Source: Brevibacterium sp. ZH18 (GTDB lineage Bacteria > Actinomycetota > Actinomycetes > Actinomycetales > Brevibacteriaceae). From it: 64,000 nt of DNA. Under the pieces are notes generated by a model. The model did not search any database, was not told where the DNA came from, and saw only the letters and a list, made by a program, of their open reading frames with translations. Where the stretch lies: the NCBI RefSeq assembly GCF_022748595.1, contig NZ_JALDSX010000003.1, positions 1 to 64,000 on the forward strand, in the 5' to 3' direction. The position numbers and the translations under genes were made by a program. How positions within the stretch are numbered: position 1 is the stretch's first letter; each line of letters begins with the position of its first letter. Positions 306 through 11,531 of this stretch are shown piece by piece.

Positions 306-1868
306 TCACTGACCGTTCTTGATCATCTCAGCGCACTTCTCGCCCATCATCATGACGGTGATGTTCGGGTTGACCGTGGTGATCTCGGGCATCGCCGAGG
401 CGTCGACGACGCGCAGTCGATTGACGCCCTTGACCCGCAGCTGCGGATCCAGCGGCGACATGGCATCGTCGGCGGCACCCATGCGTGTCGTGCCCACCGG
501 GTGGTAGACGGTGTTGTGGGTGCGGGTGATGTAGTCCTCGATCTGCTCGTCGGTCTGCACATCCTGACCGGGGAACAGTTCCTGTCCTGCCCACTCGGAC
601 ATCGCGTCCTGAGACACGATTTCGCGAGCCTTGCGGATGCCGGCGATCATGACGCGCATGTCGTGGCCCTCAGGATCGGTGAAGTAGCGAGGATCGACCT
701 TCGGCTTGTCGCGGAAGTCCTTCGAACGCAGACGTACGGTGCCGCGCGAGCGAGCATGGGTGACGTTCGGGGTGAGGCAGAAGGTGTTCTCCGACGTCGG
801 GTAGCCCTGACGCAGAGTGTGCATGTCGAACGGCACCGAACCGTAGTGCATCATCAGGTCGGGGCGGTCCAAGCCGTCCTCGGTGGGGGAGAAGATGCCG
901 ATCTCCCACCACTGGGTGGACTCTTCGACCATCGGCTTCTTGGCCTCCCAGGAGATGACGCCCTCGGGGTGGTCCTGCAGGTGCTCACCGACACCTGGGG
1001 AGTCGACGCGAACGTCGATGCCCACTTCGGCGAGGTGGTCCTTCGGGCCGATGCCCGAGAGCATGAGCAGCTGCGGGGTGTTGATCGCACCCGAGGAGAC
1101 GACGACTTCCTTCTTCGCCTCGATGCGCTTCGTGTGGCCGAATGCATTGTTGACCACGTGCACGCCCGTGCAGTTGTCGTCGGCATCGAACTCGAGTTCG
1201 CGGGCCTGGGTGTCCGTGAGGATCGTGAGGTTCTCACGCTCGAGGATCGGGTGCAGGTACGACACCGAGGAGGACGAACGAGTTCCGTCTTCCCTGCGGT
1301 TGACCTGGAAGAAGTTCGCGCCGTTGATGACGGTTTCGCCCTCGTTGAACTGCGTGCGCGGGATTCCGGCCTGCTCACAGGCGTCGAGGAGTGCGACACC
1401 GCAGGGGTCGACAGGCGGAACATTCATCAGGTGGACTGGGCCGTCGTGGCCGTGGTGGTCACCGGGAAGCTCATTCGTCTCGAGCTTCTTGTAGAGACCG
1501 AAGGTGTCCTTCGAACCCCAACCGGTGGCGCCGAACTTCTGATCCCAATCGTCGAGGTCTTCCTTCGGTGCCCAGAACGCGATGCACGAGTTATGGGATG
1601 AGCAGCCGCCGAGGACCTTCGCACGGGCATGGCGCATGAACGAGTTGCCGTGCTCCTGCTCTTCGATCGGGTAGTCCCAGTCGAAACCGGATTCGAGCAG
1701 CTCCATCCAGCGGTTGAGGCTGAGGACCATGTCCTGGCCGACATCGGTGGGGCCGGCTTCAAGCAGTCCGACGCTGACCTTCGGATCCTCGCTCAGTCGA
1801 GCAGCGACAGCGGCACCTGCGGAACCTCCGCCGACAACGACGTAGTCAAAGCTATGAGTTGTTTCCAC
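306..1868 (-). CDS. betA: Choline dehydrogenase, GMC oxidoreductase family
   Basis: This FAD-dependent glucose-methanol-choline oxidoreductase would oxidise choline to betaine aldehyde for glycine betaine synthesis. The 520-residue protein has the N-terminal dinucleotide-binding motif GGGSAG (residues 13-18). Near the C-terminus it has HPVGTTRMG (His about 455) and NPNITVMMMG (Asn about 500), the usual GMC catalytic His/Asn pair. Length is slightly below the 530-560 typical for BetA. The start is GTG at 1868 with AGGAG nine bases upstream. It follows the aldehyde dehydrogenase gene by 31 nt and is probably co-transcribed. Another alcohol substrate is possible, but the dehydrogenase partner favours choline. 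Confidence 0.85.
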   Translation of the reverse strand: METTHSFDYVVVGGGSAGAAVAARLSEDPKVSVGLLEAGPTDVGQDMVLSLNRWMELLESGFDWDYPIEEQEHGNSFMRHARAKVLGGCSSHNSCIAFWAPKEDLDDWDQKFGATGWGSKDTFGLYKKLETNELPGDHHGHDGPVHLMNVPPVDPCGVALLDACEQAGIPRTQFNEGETVINGANFFQVNRREDGTRSSSSVSYLHPILERENLTILTDTQARELEFDADDNCTGVHVVNNAFGHTKRIEAKKEVVVSSGAINTPQLLMLSGIGPKDHLAEVGIDVRVDSPGVGEHLQDHPEGVISWEAKKPMVEESTQWWEIGIFSPTEDGLDRPDLMMHYGSVPFDMHTLRQGYPTSENTFCLTPNVTHARSRGTVRLRSKDFRDKPKVDPRYFTDPEGHDMRVMIAGIRKAREIVSQDAMSEWAGQELFPGQDVQTDEQIEDYITRTHNTVYHPVGTTRMGAADDAMSPLDPQLRVKGVNRLRVVDASAMPEITTVNPNITVMMMGEKCAEMIKNGQ

Positions 1869-1899: not shown

Positions 1900-3378
1900 T
1901 CACTTGCTGTGATCGGGGAACCAGCCGGTGACAGCGGGCTCGAGGTTGTGGTAGATGTGCTTCTGCTCCTGGTATTCCGCCAGACCGGTCGGTCCCAGTT
2001 CGCGTCCTGAACCGGACTGCTTGTAGCCGCCCCATTCAGCCTGCGGCAGGTAGGGGTGGAAGTCATTGATCCAGATCGTCCCGTGGCGCAAACGCTGAGC
2101 CACGAGCTGCGTCTTGCCTGCATCCTGGCTCCAGACGGCGCCGGCCAAACCGTAGTACGTGTCATTGGCGATCTCGACTGCCTCGTCGACAGTGGAGAAG
2201 GTTTCGACGGTCACGACGGGGCCGAAAGCCTCATCGGAGACCACGGACATGCCGCGCTTGACCTGGTCGAGGATGGTCGGCAGGTAGTAGAAGCCCTGCT
2301 CGAGGTCTCCTTCGCCCGACTTGCCGCCGCAGCGCAGACGCGCGCCTTCGGCGATGCCTTTCTCGACATAGGCACTGACCTTGTCGCGGTGGGCGGCAGA
2401 GATGAGCGGTCCGGACTCGGCGTTCTCATCGAAGGGTCCGCCGAGACGGATCTGCTGTGCACGCTCGACGAGGCGGTCGACGAACTTCTCAGCGATCGAC
2501 TCCTCGACGATGAGTCGCGCACCGGCGGAGCAGACCTGGCCCGAATGGACGAAGGCCCCGTTGAGTGCGTTGTCCACGGCAGCCTCGAAGTCGGCATCGG
2601 CGAAGACGACGTTCGGGTTCTTGCCGCCGAGTTCGAGGGCGATCTTCTTCACGCTTGCTGCGGCGTTGGCGGCCAGCAGGCGTCCGGTGACGAGTCCGCC
2701 GGTGAAGGAGACCATGTCGACATCTTCGTGCGTCGACAGGGGAGCGCCCGCGTCTGCACCGGCACCGAGGATGAGGTTTCCGACTCCAGCCGGCAGTCCC
2801 AGTTCTTCGAGGACCTGCATCGTGAGGATCGCAGTGTGTGGTGTGAGCTCAGCAGGTTTGAGGACGAAGGTGTTGCCAGCGGCGATGGCCGGGGCGATCT
2901 TCCACGCGGCCTGCAGCAGGGGATAGTTCCATGGGGTGATGAGTGCGCAGACACCGACAGGTTCGTGGACGATGCGGCTGACGACCGTGTCCGTTCCTGC
3001 GTCGACCATGCGGCCGGCATCGTTTCCAGCCAACTTGCCGAAGTAGTCGAAACAGTTGGCGATGTCGTCCATGTCGATCTGTGATTCGATGAAGCGCTTG
3101 CCGGTGTCGAGCGATTCGGCACGTGCGAACTCGTCCTTGCGCTCACGCAGGACGGCCGCGAACTTGAGCAGCAGGTCCCCGCGTTCACTGGTGGGAACGC
3201 TCGACCACACGCCGGAGTCGAAGGCCCGACGGGCGGCGGCGATGGCCAGCTCGGTGTCGGCTGGGCTCGCTTCGTCCACCTCGGCGACGAGCTTGCCGTC
3301 GGCAGGGTTGCGGATCTCTCGGGTTCCGCCGTTCTGGGCCGAGACCCACTTGCCATCGATGAAGAGTGTGTTGGGCAC
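1900..3378 (-). CDS. betB: NAD(P)-dependent aldehyde dehydrogenase, probable betaine-aldehyde dehydrogenase
   Basis: A 492-residue aldehyde dehydrogenase superfamily member. It carries the catalytic Glu motif ELGGKNPN (about residue 248), the catalytic Cys in SGQVCSAG (about 282) and the ITPWNYPL substrate/cofactor region. It would oxidise betaine aldehyde to glycine betaine. The start is GTG at 3378, preceded by AGGAG five bases upstream; a longer reading frame to 3438 has no ribosome site. It is the first gene of the betB-betA unit, and a 20-nt palindrome lies 61 nt upstream. Substrate assignment rests on the betA partner; family members are otherwise promiscuous. Confidence 0.83.
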   Translation of the reverse strand: MPNTLFIDGKWVSAQNGGTREIRNPADGKLVAEVDEASPADTELAIAAARRAFDSGVWSSVPTSERGDLLLKFAAVLRERKDEFARAESLDTGKRFIESQIDMDDIANCFDYFGKLAGNDAGRMVDAGTDTVVSRIVHEPVGVCALITPWNYPLLQAAWKIAPAIAAGNTFVLKPAELTPHTAILTMQVLEELGLPAGVGNLILGAGADAGAPLSTHEDVDMVSFTGGLVTGRLLAANAAASVKKIALELGGKNPNVVFADADFEAAVDNALNGAFVHSGQVCSAGARLIVEESIAEKFVDRLVERAQQIRLGGPFDENAESGPLISAAHRDKVSAYVEKGIAEGARLRCGGKSGEGDLEQGFYYLPTILDQVKRGMSVVSDEAFGPVVTVETFSTVDEAVEIANDTYYGLAGAVWSQDAGKTQLVAQRLRHGTIWINDFHPYLPQAEWGGYKQSGSGRELGPTGLAEYQEQKHIYHNLEPAVTGWFPDHSK

Positions 3379-3438
3379 GATGTCTCCTATTCCTTGACGG
3401 TGAATGTCGTTGCGGGCGAACGTGGTGCGTCGGTCCAC

Positions 3439-3458: not shown

Positions 3459-4036
3459 AGCGATCCGGGGAGCCTCGACGTGATCGCGGCGCCTGTTCTG
3501 AGAAACACGATAGGCGAATGTGGGCCCCGAATGCTCAATCCAATGAGTCTGATCACAGTCAACGGTGGAAACAGCACGGAGGCGACTGCTCTCGTGTGAC
3601 AAGGGGCTTGGGTACGGACCTCGGTCCGGCCTGTGTTGTGATCCGCGTTTCAGGGGTGCGGCGAGAGTGCTGGGCAGCTCGTTCGCCGTCACGGATATTA
3701 CGGGAGTAGTCAATTCGGAAAGAACACTGAGAGATTCAACGGCACGCTTGTATTCAACTGCTGCAATCGATTCGTTCTCATCAGCGTTCATAAATCCCTT
3801 ACTGACCGCGATCGGGCGATTAACCGCCTTCGGAGTCATTGGCCGACAGCTCGGTTCGCCTCGATCCTAACAGAGCAGGTGAAGTGGGGAATCGGCCTTG
3901 AGTGAGTCTGACTGCGAGCAATCGCACAGTATTCTGCGCGGATTAAGGGCCGTACGTGTCCTCTCACACAGGGCGTGCGCGAGTCGAGTGCACTAGAATG
4001 GACCGGAATCATTGAAAAGACTTTATAGGGAGAATC
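3459..4036. other. Divergent intergenic region, no gene recognised
   Basis: About 580 nt between betB and the core block. It contains short open frames on both strands, the longest a 150-codon minus frame reaching into betB. None has a ribosome site, recognisable family features or consistent third-position GC. It probably holds the two divergent promoters and leader sequences. A weaker palindrome (CTCA-N6-TGAG at 3534-3547) is also present. Confidence 0.5.
3994..3999 (+). promoter_or_regulatory. Possible -10 element (TAGAAT) for the 923-residue protein gene
   Basis: TAGAAT lies 38 nt before the GTG at 4037, giving a leader of about 31 nt that holds the AGGGAGA ribosome site. No convincing -35 box is seen, which is common for actinobacterial sigma-A promoters. 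Called from the hexamer and its position only. Confidence 0.3.
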
Positions 4037-6808
4037 GTGGCCCCAGGGGATTCGCGAGACAGCCAGCAGAACCGCCGATCAGAGGGTGGTTACCGCTCCG
4101 ATCGCGACAGCAAGGACAACCGTCGACAGGGATCTCACCAGTCCCGGGACGAGCGTGGGTCACGTAACTCCGATCGCCGCGATGACCGCAGGGGCGGCAG
4201 CGACAACGACCGCCGAGGTGGCTACCAGGGCGACCGCCGCAACGACGGTGACCGCCGGGGCGGGTTCAACGGTGAACGCCGCAACGATGGTGAGCGTCGC
4301 AGCTTCGGCGGCGATCGTCGCAACGATGGTGAACGCCGTGACACCCGCAATGATGGTGAACGTCGTGACACCCGCAGTGGTGGGTACCAGGGCAATCGCA
4401 ACGACGGTGATCGTCGCGGCGGATACCAGGGGAACCGCCGTGATGATGATCGTCGCGGTGGATACCAGGGCAATCGTCGTGAAGATGGCGAGCGTCGCAG
4501 CTTCGGCGGAGATCGTCGCAACGACGGCGAGCGTCGTGACAACCGCGGCGGCTTCAACAATGACCGTCGCAACGATGGCGACCGTCGCAGTGGCGGGTAC
4601 CAGGGCAATCGCCGTGATGATGATCGTCGTGGCGGCTTCAACAGCGACCGTCGCGCTGACGGTGAGCGTCGTGACAACCGCAGTGGCGGCTACCAGGGCA
4701 ATCGCCGTGAAGATGACCGTCGTGGTGGCTTCGGCAATGACCGTCGTAGCGAGGGTGAGCGTCGCATTGGTGGTTACCAGGGCGAGCGTCGAAATGATGG
4801 CGAACGTCGTGGCGGCTACCAGGGCAACCGCAATGATGGCGAACGTCGCAGCTTCGGCGGTGACCGTCGCAATGACGGTGATCGTCGCAATGACGGTGAG
4901 CGTCGTGACACCCGCAGCGGTGGGTACCAAGGCAATCGCAATGATGGTGAACGCCGTGACAACCGTGGCGGGTACCAGGGTGATCGTCGCAATGACGGCG
5001 AGCGTCGCAGCTTCGGCGGAGATCGCCGTGACGACCGCCGAGGCGGCTCGGGCAGCGACCGTCACAACGACGGTGAGCGTCGTGACAACCGCAGTGGCGG
5101 GTACCAGGGCAATCGTCGTGATGATGATCGTCGTGGGGGCTTCAGCAGTGATCGTCGCAATGACGGCGAACGTCGCAGCTTCGGTGGTGACCGTCGCAAC
5201 GATGGTGAGCGTCGCAGCTTCGGCGGAGACCGCCGTGACGACCGCCGAGGCGGCTCGGGCAGCGACCGTCGCAACGACGGTGAACGCCGTGACAACCGCA
5301 GTGGCGGCTACCAGGGCAATCGCCGTGATGACGATCGTCGCGGTGGATACCAGGGTGATCGTCGTGACGACAGCCGCGGCGGCCGGGGCGGCAGCGATCG
5401 CGGCGGTGCAGGCCGTAACCCCAACGACCGTCGGGCGATTCGTTCGACGGACACCGGTGAATACGCCCGCGAACAGCGCGCACGTCGTCCTCGGATCCAG
5501 GAACCGGAGATCCCCGAAGAGGTCACCGGCAAGGAGCTCGACAAGGAGATCAGCAGCCAGCTGCGCACTCTCGACAAGGAGAATGCGGCAGCTGTTGCCA
5601 AGCATCTTGTTGCTGCCGGCGGATTCCTCGACGCCGACCCCGAACGCGCCTACGATCACGCAAAAGCGGCAATGGCCCGTGCCGGCCGCGTCGGACTTGT
5701 TCGCGAAGCACTCGGCATCGCCGCCTATCACGTCGAGAAGTATGACGAGGCGGTCCGCGAGCTGCGTACCCACCGTCGCATCTCGGGCTCGAACGACAAC
5801 ATGGCTCTCATCGCTGACGCAGAGCGCGGCCGCGGCAAGCCGCAGAAGGCACTCGAACTGTACGAGTCGGCCAGCGAACTTGAGCTCGACAATGACACTC
5901 GCACGGAGCTCGTCATTGTGGCTGCCGGCGCCAAGTCGGACCTCGGCGACCTCAAGGGTGCCCGCGCTCTGATTGAGGCCGAGGACTTCACTCAGAAGCC
6001 GAGCGGTGCCCTGGTCCGACTCATGGCTGCCTATGCCGGCGTTCTCCGTCTGCACGGCGAAGGTGAAATGGCCGACAAGTACGAGGAGCTCTCGCGCCGC
6101 ACGGCTAAGGCCACCGGCACTCTCTTCGGCGATGAGGAGCCCGACCCCAACTTCGGCGTCGAGATCGAAACCGTCGAAGAGATCCCGGACGAGGACGAGA
6201 CCGAATTCGAGGACTCGGACGAGGACTTGGATGAGGACGAAAACGAGCTCGAGGGCGACGAGGACGAGAGCGACGAAGAAGGCGACGACTTCGACGACGA
6301 CGAGTCGGATTCGTCTGTCTCCTTCGGCTCAGCTGCGAGTGCAGCGAGCACGGCTGCCGTCGCAGCTGACTTCGCGCAGTCTGAAGAAGCCGGGTCCGTC
6401 AACGGGTTCGCAGATGACGGCAATGTCGACGATGCAGAATCCGGTGACCTCGAAACCGGCTTCACCGAGTCCGAGAGCTCGGCCGCTGAGGACTCGAACT
6501 CCGTCGATGAGGAAGCGGAATCTGCCGACTCTGACTTCGACGACAGTACTGACTTCGATGGCAATGCCGAGTTCGATGACGAGGACTCCTCGGAGCTCGA
6601 CGGGGGAGTTGACGACGCTGCAGCCGAACAGGCACCAGCGAAGTCGAAGACCCAGGTGTCGGAGAAGGAACTGAAGAAGATCAAGATCTCCGACGATGAG
6701 ATCGAGGCTGAACTCGACGAAATCCTGGCCGAGGTCGAGGAATCGACTCCCGAGGGCTCAGCCGCCCCGGAATCGACTGAAACGGATCGTCCGAACGGCG
6801 ATCAGTGA
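4037..6808 (+). CDS. TPR protein with long Arg/Asp/Gly repeat arm and acidic tail (Rv1691-position homologue)
   Basis: A 923-residue protein in three parts. Residues about 20-455 are low complexity, built from repeats such as [24 protein letters not shown] and RRSFGGD, with evenly spaced Tyr/Phe. Residues about 480-710 form a helical, TPR-like region. Residues about 710-923 are very rich in Asp, Glu and Ser. The position before a HAD phosphatase, a small protein and tlyA matches mycobacterial Rv1691, a short TPR protein, so the arms are additions to a conserved core. The start is GTG with AGGGAGA upstream; the stop overlaps the next start. The arm resembles RGG-type RNA-binding disordered regions, but function is unknown. 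An RNA or ribosome role is inference from composition and the tlyA neighbourhood. Confidence 0.85.
4160..5420 (+). repeat. Degenerate in-frame tandem repeats encoding the RGG-like arm
   Basis: About 1.26 kb of imperfect in-frame repeats, with recurring modules such as CGTCGCAACGATGGTGAGCG and GGCGGGTACCAGGGCAATCG in variable order. The modules are shuffled rather than strictly periodic. Because the repeat lacks stop codons in other frames, long spurious frames appear on both strands here (628 codons in the +2 frame, 631 antisense). Length variation between strains is expected. Confidence 0.9.
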
Positions 6809-7908
6809 CACCAGCCGCTGACGAAGCATCAACAGTCGATCACCGCCCGCCCGTGAAAGCGGGCGCGGTGATCGACTGTGTGCTCTTCGACCTCGACGGC
6901 GTCGTCTATCACGGGCCATCACCCATCCCCGGCGCGGTGGAGGGCATCGGCTTCCTCCACGCCCGCTCCATTCCCGTCAACTACGTCACGAACAATGCCA
7001 CCCGCACCGCCGAGGCAGTCGCCGAGCACATCACCGAGCTGGGAATCAGCACGAATGCGGACGAAGTGACCACCTCGGCGCAGGTGCTCGCCGATCGGCT
7101 GGGGACGAAGTTCGGGCCCGGTGCAGTCGTCTATCTCATCGGCGCCGCCGGGTTGGCCACGGCTCTCGAGTCAGTCGGACTGACGGTCACTCGTTCGCTC
7201 GACGACCACCCTGTCGCCATTGCGCAGGGACTCGACCCGGACATCACCTATCAGCGAATCGTGAGCGCGTGCGAGGCGATCGAGTCGGGCATCGAATGGT
7301 GGGCGACGAACCCCGACTACTCGATGGTCGGTGCCCGCAGCAGAGTCCCGGGCAACGGAGCATTCATCGACATGCTCTCCCACCTCACGGGCGCGACGCC
7401 GACGATCGTCGGCAAACCAGCACCGCACATGATGGAGCACGCGGCTAACCGACTCAGCGCCAGACGACCGCTCATGGTCGGCGACCGGCTCGACACTGAC
7501 ATCGAGGGCGGCAACAGTGCTGGCTTCGAGACTGCGCTTGTGCTCACCGGCGTCCACGACATCCATGACGCCCTCTACGCCCGCCCGCAACTGCGCCCCA
7601 CCTTCATCCTGCCCAGCCTGCGCGGACTCGAACTGCTCATCACAGCAAGTGGCACGAGCACCTCGGCGAATCGCGAAGCCGGGGCAGGGAGTGCGCCCGA
7701 TGCCCAAGCCGATGCCGCTATCACCGTGGAGTCCGACTCCGAGGACGTCGCCGATGCCTGCCGCATCGTCGACGGCGAGCTCCGACTGAGTGAGTCCGCT
7801 CTGACCAGCAGCATCGGAGTGCAGGCCGCGCTGAGCACTGCATGGCACGCGATCGATCGCGGTCATCAGGTGGGCCCTGGAAATCTGCCGCGGAGGATTC
7901 ATGACTGA
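6805..7908 (+). CDS. HAD-superfamily (class IIA) sugar/glycerol phosphatase
   Basis: A 367-residue HAD hydrolase with nucleophile motif FDLDGVVYHG (Asp29, Asp31), motif II VTNNATRT, motif III GKPAPHMM and motif IV GDRLDTDIEGG. The class IIA cap lies between motifs II and III. Its place after the TPR gene and before a 60-residue protein and tlyA matches Rv1692, a glycerol-3-phosphate/phosphoglycolate-type phosphatase. The C-terminal 110 residues extend beyond the catalytic domain, as in that homologue. The start is GTG, overlapping the upstream stop as GTGA. The exact substrate is not readable from the sequence. Confidence 0.85.
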   Translation: MTPAADEASTVDHRPPVKAGAVIDCVLFDLDGVVYHGPSPIPGAVEGIGFLHARSIPVNYVTNNATRTAEAVAEHITELGISTNADEVTTSAQVLADRLGTKFGPGAVVYLIGAAGLATALESVGLTVTRSLDDHPVAIAQGLDPDITYQRIVSACEAIESGIEWWATNPDYSMVGARSRVPGNGAFIDMLSHLTGATPTIVGKPAPHMMEHAANRLSARRPLMVGDRLDTDIEGGNSAGFETALVLTGVHDIHDALYARPQLRPTFILPSLRGLELLITASGTSTSANREAGAGSAPDAQADAAITVESDSEDVADACRIVDGELRLSESALTSSIGVQAALSTAWHAIDRGHQVGPGNLPRRIHD

Positions 7909-8089
7909 CCAGACACCTGAACAGACACCTGAACAGCCGACCCCGACTCCAGCCTCGGTGCACGGTGACGTGCCGGTCGAGGCGTGGAGGAACAGCCTCG
8001 GCGAGGCGAAGGAAGCACCACTCTCCGCCCGGCACGCGCGCCTGTCAGCACTGCTCGACGATCTCGACGCGCAGGTGGGCTCGCTGTGA
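7901..8089 (+). CDS. Small conserved protein (Rv1693-position)
   Basis: A 62-residue protein with a Pro/Thr/Gln-rich N-terminus (TPEQTPEQPTPTP) and a helical C-terminus (ARHARLSALLDDLDAQVGSL). The ATG overlaps the end of the phosphatase gene by 8 nt, and the stop overlaps the tlyA start. A short protein occupies the same place in mycobacteria (Rv1693). Function unknown; the tight overlaps suggest translational coupling to tlyA. Confidence 0.7.
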   Translation: MTDQTPEQTPEQPTPTPASVHGDVPVEAWRNSLGEAKEAPLSARHARLSALLDDLDAQVGSL

Positions 8090-8889
8090 GCCGGCTCGAT
8101 CGCGCACTGGTCGATCGAGAGCTCATCGCCACTCGGTCCCGGGCGGCAAGAGAGATCGCAGCCGGGCATGTCAGCGTCAACGGCAAGACCGTGACGAAAC
8201 CATCCACCGAGGTCACCGATGCTGATGACCTGGCGGTCACCGAAGCCGACCCCTGGGTCGCCCGCAGCGCGCACAAACTCCTCGGAGCCCTCGACGCGTT
8301 CGCGATCTCAGACGTTTCCGGAGCGAGTGTCCTCGACGCCGGAGCCTCAACCGGAGGCTTCACCCAGGTCCTCCTGCATCGCGGAGCCGGCGAAGTGTGG
8401 GCCGTCGACGTCGGCCACGACCAGTTCGACGCACGCCTGCGCGCCGATCCCCGCGTCCACGTCCGCGAGGGACTCAACTTGCGCGACCTCGCAGCCTCAG
8501 ACGTGCCGGCCGTGGACCTCGTCGTCGCCGACGTCTCCTTCATCTCTCTGCGCCTGCTCATCGGCCCTCTGCTCGCGGCCACACGCCCGAGCGGAGAACT
8601 CCTTCTCATGGTCAAACCACAGTTCGAACTCGCCCGCAGCGCACTCGACAAACACGGCGTCGTATCCAGTGCCGCCAACCGGCGTCGGGCCCTCGACTCC
8701 GTGCTCTCCGGCATCGGCCAAATCGACGCCCGGGTGGTCGACATCGCCGCCTCGGTCCTGCCCGGACCCAGCGGCAACCGCGAGTACTTCCTGCGTGTTC
8801 GACCAGGGAAAACACCAGCCGAGTCCGATAGGCTCAGCGAGGCGGACATCACCGACCATCTTGAGACGATCATGAGGGGAGAGACGTGA
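8086..8889 (+). CDS. tlyA: TlyA, 16S/23S rRNA 2'-O-methyltransferase
   Basis: A 267-residue protein with an N-terminal S4-like RNA-binding segment (about residues 1-62; SRAAREIAAGHVSVNGK) and a SAM-binding methyltransferase domain beginning at VLDAGASTGGFTQ. Conserved blocks VDLVVADVSFISL and LMVKPQFE are present. In mycobacteria TlyA methylates 16S C1409 and 23S C1920 and confers capreomycin susceptibility. The start is GTG at 8086, overlapping the preceding stop as GTGA; this gives the normal family length of about 268. Confidence 0.92.
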   Translation: MSRLDRALVDRELIATRSRAAREIAAGHVSVNGKTVTKPSTEVTDADDLAVTEADPWVARSAHKLLGALDAFAISDVSGASVLDAGASTGGFTQVLLHRGAGEVWAVDVGHDQFDARLRADPRVHVREGLNLRDLAASDVPAVDLVVADVSFISLRLLIGPLLAATRPSGELLLMVKPQFELARSALDKHGVVSSAANRRRALDSVLSGIGQIDARVVDIAASVLPGPSGNREYFLRVRPGKTPAESDRLSEADITDHLETIMRGET

Positions 8890-9827
8890 CTCGACACATC
8901 ATGGTGCTCCTGCACCCGCAGCGTGAAGACTCAGCTGTGGCGGCGGTGAGCGTGTGGAAGGCACTCCTCGACGACGGGATCATCCCAGTCGTCCTCGACG
9001 AAGAGGTCCTCGACTTCGCCGCCCGCAGCTCCTACGCCGATGTCCAGCAGGAGCTGCTCAGCCGCTGCGAGGTCATCGACCCCTCCCAGCTGGCAGCCTG
9101 GAAGTCTCGGTGCGAACTCGTCATCGTCCTCGGCGGCGACGGCACGATCCTGCGCGCTGCCGAACGCTTCCACGGCTCCGGAGTTCCCCTCATGGGCGTC
9201 AACCTCGGTCACGTCGGATTCCTTGCCGAAAGCGAAAGAGAAGACCTCGCCGAGGCGGTCCACCGGGCATCCGTGCGCGACTACCTGGTGGAGGAGAGGC
9301 TCGCCCTCGACGTGACCGTATGGCATGAAGGGGAGATCATCTTCAACGCCTGGGCACTCAACGAGGCCACAGTGGAGAAGACCTCGAAATCCCGCATGAT
9401 CGACGTCGTCCTCGGCGTCGACTCCCGTCCGGTGTCGTCGTTCGGCTGCGACGGAGTCATCCTGGCCACGCCCACGGGTTCGACGGCCTATTCGTTCTCC
9501 GCCGGCGGGCCCATCGTCTGGCCCGAGGTCGAAGCACTCCTGCTCGTGCCGATCTCCGCCCACGCGCTGTTCACCGAACCGCTCGTCGTCAACCCGGACT
9601 CACGCCTCGGCGTGGAGATCTCACCGAGCAACCCTGACTTCTCCGCGGTCCTGTGGTGCGACGGCAGGCGCGCGATCGAGCTCCCAGCCGGAGCGCGCAT
9701 CGAAGCCAAGCGCTCCGAGTCACCGATCAAACTTGCCCGCCTGCACACCGGACCCTTCACCGACCGGCTGGTCGCGAAGTTCCGGCTCCCCGTCTCCGGC
9801 TGGCGGGGACCGATCGAGAGGGCGTAG
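8886..9827 (+). CDS. nadK: NAD kinase
   Basis: This 313-residue ATP/polyphosphate-dependent NAD kinase makes NADP. The GGDGT motif sits at residues 83-87, and LMGVNLGHVGFLAE and ATPTGSTAYSFSAGGP follow as expected for PpnK/NadK. The GTG start overlaps the tlyA stop, and the gene abuts recN directly (TAGATG). The tlyA-nadK-recN order is strongly conserved in actinobacteria. Confidence 0.95.
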   Translation: MTRHIMVLLHPQREDSAVAAVSVWKALLDDGIIPVVLDEEVLDFAARSSYADVQQELLSRCEVIDPSQLAAWKSRCELVIVLGGDGTILRAAERFHGSGVPLMGVNLGHVGFLAESEREDLAEAVHRASVRDYLVEERLALDVTVWHEGEIIFNAWALNEATVEKTSKSRMIDVVLGVDSRPVSSFGCDGVILATPTGSTAYSFSAGGPIVWPEVEALLLVPISAHALFTEPLVVNPDSRLGVEISPSNPDFSAVLWCDGRRAIELPAGARIEAKRSESPIKLARLHTGPFTDRLVAKFRLPVSGWRGPIERA

Positions 9828-11531
9828 ATGATCTCCGAACTCCGCATCTCCCACCTCGGCGTGATCGCTGAAGCCGAGGTCGAACTCTCCACCGGCTTCA
9901 CCGTCGTCACCGGCGAGACCGGCGCAGGCAAGACGATGTTCGTTTCCGCTTTGAGTCTGCTCATGGGGCGCAAAGTGGGTGCCGGAGTGGTCCGCAAAGG
10001 GGCGGAGAAGGCCGAGGTCGAAGGCATCTTCTCCGACATCACTGACTCCGTGCGCACCCGCATCGAAGAAGCCGGCGGCAGTGCCGATGGGGAGGCGATC
10101 ATCTCTCGGACTGTGGCGCAGAAGGGCCGCGCCCGTGCCACAGCCGGCGGCCGGACCGTTCCGATTTCGGTCCTGGCAGAGATCTCCGAAGACCTCATCA
10201 CCCTGCATGGTCAGTCCGAGCAGCTGAGCCTCAAGGGCGCCGCAGCTCAGCGACAGCTCCTCGACAGCGCCGGCGGGGCCGAGCTCGAAGCCGTGGCCGC
10301 CGACTACCGCAGAGCCTTCGACCAGTGGCGTGAGACGCAGGCCCGCGTCACTCGAATCAAGGACACGACCGCGGCCCGTCGCGAACGGATCCTGTGGCTC
10401 AAAGGCTGCCTCGAGGCCATCGACAAAGTCCGGCCTGTTCCCGGCGAAGATGAGGCACTCGCGGCTCAGTCGGCGAAGCTCGGCGCCGCCGCGGACATCA
10501 CTCGCGCCGTCGGCAGCGCACACGACCTCCTCCTCGGCAGCGAACTCGACGACTCCGGTGCCGCAGTCGACCAAGTCCACCAGGCGATTGCGGCGATCAC
10601 CCAGGTCGACGCTGCCGACCCGGAACTCGTCACGATCAAAGACGCGCTCAACGACGCCGTGCTGCGGCTGTCCGACGCAGCAGCCGAACTCAGCTCCTAT
10701 CTGACCGGGTTCGACGAGCTGGGGGAGACCTCGATCGAGGAGACCGAGGCCAGGCGTGCCGAACTCGGTTCCCTGGCCCCCTATGGCCAGAACGTGGCCG
10801 AGGTCCTCGACTTTGAGGCCCGCTCCGCGCAGGAGATGACCGAACTCGAGACCGAGGACCGCGACCTCGGCCAGCTCGACGCCGAGTTAAGCGCCGCCGA
10901 GGACGCCATGGCCACGGCGGGCCGAGCCCTGACCGAGATCCGCTCCACGACCGCCGAGTCGTTCTCGAAGGCCGTCAGCGCAGAACTGGCCGCACTGTCC
11001 ATGCCGAAGGCGCAGGTGACGTTCGAACTCACCGAACGCGAACCGGCATCCCACGGCTGTGACGATGTCCGACTCACGTTCGCCCCGCACGACTCCTCGG
11101 CAGGAGACGACATCGGCAAGATCGCCAGCGGCGGTGAGCTCTCACGTGTGATGTTGGCCATCGAGGTCGTCCGCGCGGCGGGGGAGGCCATCCCCACCTA
11201 TGTCTTCGACGAGGTCGATGCCGGCGTCGGCGGCAAGGCCGCGATCGAGATCGGTCGGCGTTTGGCGAAACTGGCCGAGAACGCCCAAGTCATCGTCGTC
11301 ACGCACCTGCCGCAGGTCGCTGCATGGGCAGACACCCACGTCACGATCGTCAAGGATGACGACGCGGAGACAGTGAAGTCCGGAGTGCGAGAACTGAGCG
11401 AGGACGAACGTGTCATCGAACTCTCACGAATGCTCGCGGGCATGGAAGAATCCGACTCCGCGAAGGCCCACGCAGCGGAACTCCTCGACTCAGCACGGCA
11501 GGTCAAGACCGGATCGCAAGCACGGACATGA
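9828..11531 (+). CDS. recN: DNA repair protein RecN
   Basis: A 567-residue SMC-like ATPase of double-strand-break repair. It has Walker A GETGAGKT (residues 29-36), a long central coiled-coil region, an ABC signature near IASGGELSRVMLAIE and Walker B YVFDEVDAGVGGKAA, followed by the conserved VTHLPQVAAWAD. The start codon touches the nadK stop, so translation is probably coupled. Length is normal for RecN. Confidence 0.95.
   Translation: MISELRISHLGVIAEAEVELSTGFTVVTGETGAGKTMFVSALSLLMGRKVGAGVVRKGAEKAEVEGIFSDITDSVRTRIEEAGGSADGEAIISRTVAQKGRARATAGGRTVPISVLAEISEDLITLHGQSEQLSLKGAAAQRQLLDSAGGAELEAVAADYRRAFDQWRETQARVTRIKDTTAARRERILWLKGCLEAIDKVRPVPGEDEALAAQSAKLGAAADITRAVGSAHDLLLGSELDDSGAAVDQVHQAIAAITQVDAADPELVTIKDALNDAVLRLSDAAAELSSYLTGFDELGETSIEETEARRAELGSLAPYGQNVAEVLDFEARSAQEMTELETEDRDLGQLDAELSAAEDAMATAGRALTEIRSTTAESFSKAVSAELAALSMPKAQVTFELTEREPASHGCDDVRLTFAPHDSSAGDDIGKIASGGELSRVMLAIEVVRAAGEAIPTYVFDEVDAGVGGKAAIEIGRRLAKLAENAQVIVVTHLPQVAAWADTHVTIVKDDDAETVKSGVRELSEDERVIELSRMLAGMEESDSAKAHAAELLDSARQVKTGSQART

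Follow-up and report, generated by a model that had tools for sequence, protein, structure and literature searches.

The window analysed, a stretch of 64,000 nucleotides from Brevibacterium sp. ZH18, carries among its open reading frames a GTG-started frame at 4037-6808 on the forward strand that encodes a protein of 923 residues. The protein divides into an arm, a core and a tail, and its gene lies between a betA/betB-like pair on the other strand and a run of genes on its own strand (Table 1). The order of the core, HAD, TlyA and NAD kinase genes was kept in relatives wherever the flank allowed it to be read with tblastn. In L202-L205 the betA/betB-like pair separates the rRNA operon from the TPR gene; as no such pair was found in L198-L201, it may be an insertion that arose while the genus evolved.

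Table 1. The TPR gene, the parts of its product and the neighbouring genes, in window positions
Feature	Position	Strand	Basis
betA-like GMC oxidoreductase gene, upstream neighbour	306-1868	-	sequence match
betB-like aldehyde dehydrogenase gene, upstream neighbour, divergent	1900-3438	-	sequence match
AGGGAG, likely ribosome-binding site	4027-4032	+	read directly from the sequence
R/G/D/N-rich arm with 13-residue repeat, residues 1-469	4037-5443	+	composition, repeat analysis
Conserved helical TPR-like core, residues 470-696	5444-6124	+	homology, predicted model
Acidic tail, residues 697-923, plus stop codon	6125-6808	+	composition, charge, model
Conserved short motif in the tail (33 residues)	6644-6742	+	predicted helix
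HAD-IIA family hydrolase gene, sharing four nucleotides (GTGA, 6805-6808) with the end of the TPR gene	6805-7908	+	sequence match
tlyA-like gene (S4 + FtsJ methyltransferase)	7984-8889	+	sequence match
NAD kinase gene	8886-9827	+	sequence match
RecN-like gene	9828-11531	+	sequence match

Homologues of the core were free of internal stops in 57 of 57 Brevibacterium genomes, and in the relatives read, in the genus and in the class, the arm was in frame with the core. When 18 repeat units of the arm were compared, they differed 443, 413 and 1076 times at codon positions 1, 2 and 3, respectively, and on this third-position excess the idea of an untranslated arm was rejected. Based on the stop-free core homology, the in-frame arm and the third-position excess, the arm is judged from sequence to be translated as protein. 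Two further long open frames overlap the arm, one of 628 residues in another forward frame (4086-5972) and one of 631 residues on the reverse strand (4160-6055). Their presence speaks for a reading in which the repeat is not protein and the relevant element is a different frame or a repeat without coding function; however, with similar arms in frame with a conserved core across genus and class, and the differences between repeat units concentrated at third codon positions, we consider this extremely improbable. The two frames are probably by-products of the repeat and of codon make-up.

The arm consists largely of Arg (28%), Gly (22%), Asp (17%), Asn (9%) and Ser (7%), and a composition count found residues 1-470 to be devoid of Leu, Val, Cys and Trp. 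It contains 17 RGG motifs and 25 Tyr or Phe residues, whose commonest spacing is exactly 13 residues (11 of 24 spacings), and self-identity over the whole arm is maximal at a lag of 13 (0.34, against a maximum of 0.23 over 40 shuffles). Canonical RGG boxes are poor in Asp and Glu; here these two residues make up 22%. The arm is a polyampholyte, with 50% charged residues and a net charge of +32 that amounts to only 0.07 per residue. A charge-hydropathy plot classes the core as folded and both arm and tail as disordered; as in RGG/RG RNA-binding proteins, several RGG motifs thus lie within a predicted disordered segment. Used as a query against its own genome, the arm returned nothing beyond itself at E ≤ 0.001. 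A codon-position shuffle test discriminated poorly, with net charge at 27.3 observed against 24.3 expected; RG dipeptides were above such shuffles (p ≤ 0.05) in 25 of the 57 arms of the genus.

The TPR label of the core is weak by sequence and is used here as a putative one. All Pfam TPR matches were below their cut-offs, the best being TPR_15 at 21 bits (cut-off 26.2), NCBIfam gave no usable name, and a search of solved structures with the core returned weak matches only (designer PPR, SRP72). A structure model of core plus tail, built from 26 Brevibacterium sequences, predicts an all-helical repeat for the core, with confidence only in its second half; its likeness is to designed TPR proteins, although no hit reached E ≤ 0.001. 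The tail has a net charge of -82 and 39% Asp+Glu, and was modelled mostly at pLDDT < 50; model residues 417-433, which form a short helix that is conserved, are the exception. The tail motif is kept while the remaining tail varies, a loose pattern for the core of the motif being matched by 49 of 57 genus tails, and it is possibly a docking site for a partner. These results agree with the preliminary description in its RGG-like make-up with spaced aromatics and in its blocks of opposite charge. The disorder check that it had proposed gives a predicted disordered arm and tail, which for the tail also appears as low confidence in the model.

Within the order, 285 of 297 genomes had a core homologue, and within the class 269 of 296. 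In the phylum sample the core was found in 60 of 149 genomes, 48 of these 60 being among the 137 outside the class, where matches were weaker and mostly in short frames. The 25 named relatives in the genus set are all Brevibacterium. Two genomes gave two TPR-core matches each (L128 and L139; L129 and L140).

Within Brevibacterium the arm spans 17 to 472 residues and reaches at least 80 residues in 55 of 57 genomes, with R+G+D+N averaging 77% (sd 6%) over these 55 arms. Arms outside the genus were surveyed in 79 rows from 39 families and 78 genomes, one genome appearing twice. They were at least 50 residues long in 68 rows, at least 100 in 60 and at least 300 in 34, where arms at contig ends are lower bounds and taking the start of the longest frame may add some tens of residues. 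At least one arm of 100 residues or more occurred in 30 of the 39 families, and 67 of the 68 rows with arms of at least 50 residues had an R/G-rich arm with net positive charge. Two of the arms hold masked bases; leaving them out gives 58 of 77 rows with at least 100 residues and 65 of 66 positive. The survey excluded second copies of the gene, matches that were weak or partial, one fragment at the end of a contig and one row whose start was doubtful. The preliminary description had the arm as a gain made here on an otherwise short protein, and named a lack of homologues with an arm among the points that would speak against its reading. Such homologues do exist. The gain made here is not supported, and an arm unique to this genome is contradicted by arms across the genus, the order and the class.

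The repeats that make up the arms differ between lineages, for example DNRGG at lag 11 (L070), GGYQG at lag 10 (L191), SYGDR at lag 18 (L173) and GGFRG at lag 10 (L107), and the pattern looks like independent, repeated expansion of one kind of segment. Arm length can also change quickly: rows L029, L057, L158 and L159, which have zero branch length in the core tree, carry arms of 267, 266, 213 and 282 residues. Some lineages have a short arm or none (part of family f22, and f44, among others), which implies that the arm is dispensable to the role of the core.

The acidic tail lengthens with the arm within the genus, although this relation vanishes under plain Brownian contrasts. Arm and tail length were correlated at r = 0.72 over 56 of the 57 genus proteins, the one running off its contig being left out of all these tests, and at r = 0.85 in the close clade (n = 38). 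Phylogenetic least squares on the core tree, with a fitted lambda of 0.91, gave p = 9e-8 for a slope of 0.34 (standard error 0.056). With a purely Brownian model, independent contrasts gave r = 0.13 (p = 0.35), while the rank correlation of the contrasts was 0.35 (p = 0.009). Setting lambda to 1 fitted the data far worse than the fitted value, in our opinion because near-identical cores carry very different arms. Outside the genus, the uncorrected correlation was 0.54 over those rows (57 of 79) in which neither end was cut off, and several lineages of the wider class combine long arms with tiny tails. As a control for a genome-wide trend in the length of disordered segments, Rho frame length was set against TPR frame length, and no significant correlation was found (r = 0.18, p = 0.20; 56 of 57 genomes, after removal of one with a short Rho frame). 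Rho frames in the genus reach 948 residues and contain another length-variable disordered segment.

The window itself contains no rRNA; its first position is the beginning of the contig, so that any rRNA further upstream would be out of view. In many draft assemblies the contig stops a short way upstream of the TPR gene, which leads us to suspect a repeated element there. Loci for rRNA were picked among contigs that reach upstream, so that the following counts are not from a random sample. Among 25 genomes from other genera of the class, represented by contigs that were finished or long, 24 (all but L192) had 23S, 5S and all or part of 16S upstream on the same strand. The first in-frame start, which may differ from the true one, lay 12-471 nt past 5S in 22 of these 24; the distance was larger in L195 (1.6 kb) and L188 (4.9 kb). 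Among ten loci from other classes, 5S with 23S was upstream on the same strand in eight, 16S alone was seen in one, and one locus, with under 2 kb of upstream sequence, had no rRNA. A group I intron match lies inside the 23S rRNA match of one genome from another class of the phylum (L236:7520-7821). In all eight other Brevibacterium loci a same-strand 5S preceded the gene at a distance of 1.1-9.1 kb, and 23S was also seen in the six whose stretch extended far enough; in this genus the rRNA operon is thus not directly adjacent to the TPR gene. The link to rRNA or ribosomes, at which the preliminary description had hinted from neighbouring genes, is therefore stronger than first thought. Gene order by itself is no proof of co-expression with rRNA. 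The literature searched yielded no study of the function of the TPR protein or of its rRNA linkage.

By gene order, the Brevibacterium protein belongs with the Rv1691/MSMEG_3754 proteins of mycobacteria, since the locus order given for Rv1691 in PMC3072309 lists HAD, tlyA, ppnK and recN after it. In the f22 genomes of our sample the core is likewise followed by HAD and TlyA, but in two of them (L102 and L114) the arm is short (22 and 41 residues) and the acidic tail is absent, unlike the Brevibacterium protein. One study reported that the orthologue MSMEG_3754 came down with cross-linked RNA polymerase but showed no association with DNA, and its authors suggest that the protein may simply be RNA associated (PMC7092591). 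MSMEG_3754 is also entered in a ClpC1 interactome table (PMC10433963).

A likeness to the arm was found in the N-terminal insertion domain of actinobacterial Rho, which is also disordered and rich in R, D, N and G. Rho of the same genome is a separate gene (L142, on contig C38), and the best stretch of its insert has 92 of 100 residues R/G/D/N, with a composition cosine of 0.92 to the arm. However, the Rho domain sits in a helicase and its best stretch has no Tyr or Phe, whereas the arm is not part of a Rho helicase, and the likeness is one of composition only. For M. luteus and M. tuberculosis, such inserts are described as increasing the affinity of Rho for RNA (PMC8828861). Similar arms were also sought on the DEAD-box helicases of this genome (21 matches, of which 15 loci were read and the two longest frames of each scored) and rejected, the best having 51 of 100 R/G/D/N residues, in a secondary frame, against 92 in Rho. 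With eukaryotic RGG/RG-motif proteins, whose RGG/RG regions are tied to RNA binding in the account of PMC6821194, the arm shares the RGG motifs and the spaced aromatics, but the acidic residues within the arm, the acidic tail and a TPR core in place of an RNA-recognition domain set it apart. Bacteroides Rho offers a further parallel, as a bacterial protein that is conserved but has a disordered region of variable length; it differs in being another protein with an E/K- and Q/N-rich region reported to phase separate, where here the evidence is compositional (PMC10284900). The mode of action may resemble that of an RGG protein or of a Rho insertion domain, yet the protein is neither.

We tentatively propose, with a probability of roughly 0.45, that the Brevibacterium form of this conserved actinobacterial TPR protein is an RNA-associated scaffold made beside, and perhaps in step with, rRNA. 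The gene position, the arm composition and the arm-tail covariation were obtained directly by computation; RNA binding, co-transcription, competition and condensation are properties that we infer for the protein. The arm would make weak multivalent contacts with RNA, be it nascent rRNA or mRNA in the vicinity of RNA polymerase. The acidic tail would compete with RNA for the arm and so tune its stickiness, and the core and the conserved tail helix would recruit partners, for example RNA polymerase or ribosome-maturation factors. We favour this reading because similar Rho inserts raise RNA affinity and MSMEG_3754 appeared in an RNA polymerase pull-down; the rRNA position, the kept operon, the positive R/G arms built from different repeats and the arm-tail covariation also count for it. 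Counted against it are the acidic residues in the arm, with its low net charge density, the armless lineages, the null result of the Brownian contrasts, the long arms with tiny tails, the non-adjacency of rRNA in Brevibacterium and the lack of a visible rRNA operon in the window.

That the core is the working part, with arm and tail as tolerated, soluble, slippage-prone low-complexity expansions in GC-rich DNA that have no RNA role, is in our view unlikely, though it is the foremost of the alternatives. It would account for the fast turnover of arm length on cores at zero branch length and for repeat units that differ between lineages, and most of the net charge was reproduced by codon-position shuffles; but the make-up kept across the genus, the positive charge of nearly all arms elsewhere, the mostly third-position differences between repeat units and the RG excess over shuffles in 25 of 57 arms count against it. 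Somewhat less likely still, arm and tail could bind each other or proteins by charge, giving a protein-protein scaffold or a chaperone-like protein in which RNA is uninvolved. The opposite charges and the arm-tail covariation fit this as well, and TPR folds usually bind peptides. The place of MSMEG_3754 in the ClpC1 table (PMC10433963) points the same way, whereas the gene position after the rRNA operon, the RNA polymerase pull-down (PMC7092591) and the RNA-affinity role of the compositionally similar Rho inserts (PMC8828861) favour the RNA-associated scaffold.

A bolder form of the RNA-associated scaffold, to which we give little credence at present, would be a dedicated actinomycetotal rRNA-coupled protein, encoded immediately behind an rRNA operon and made with the rRNA transcript. 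Its R/G arm, restrained by the tail, would build a nucleolus-like body at the rrn locus by collecting RNA polymerase, nascent rRNA and maturation factors, TlyA for example, and such arms would have evolved repeatedly from different repeats. The gene that directly follows the rRNA genes in most of the sampled lineages encodes a near-universal, uncharacterised actinobacterial protein, and arms like those it carries have in other proteins been tied to RNA binding and clustering. Cores at least 84% identical to this one occur in 38 Brevibacterium genomes, and the natural arms of 17 to 472 residues within one genus provide a ready series for the effects of arm and tail length on RNA binding and clustering.
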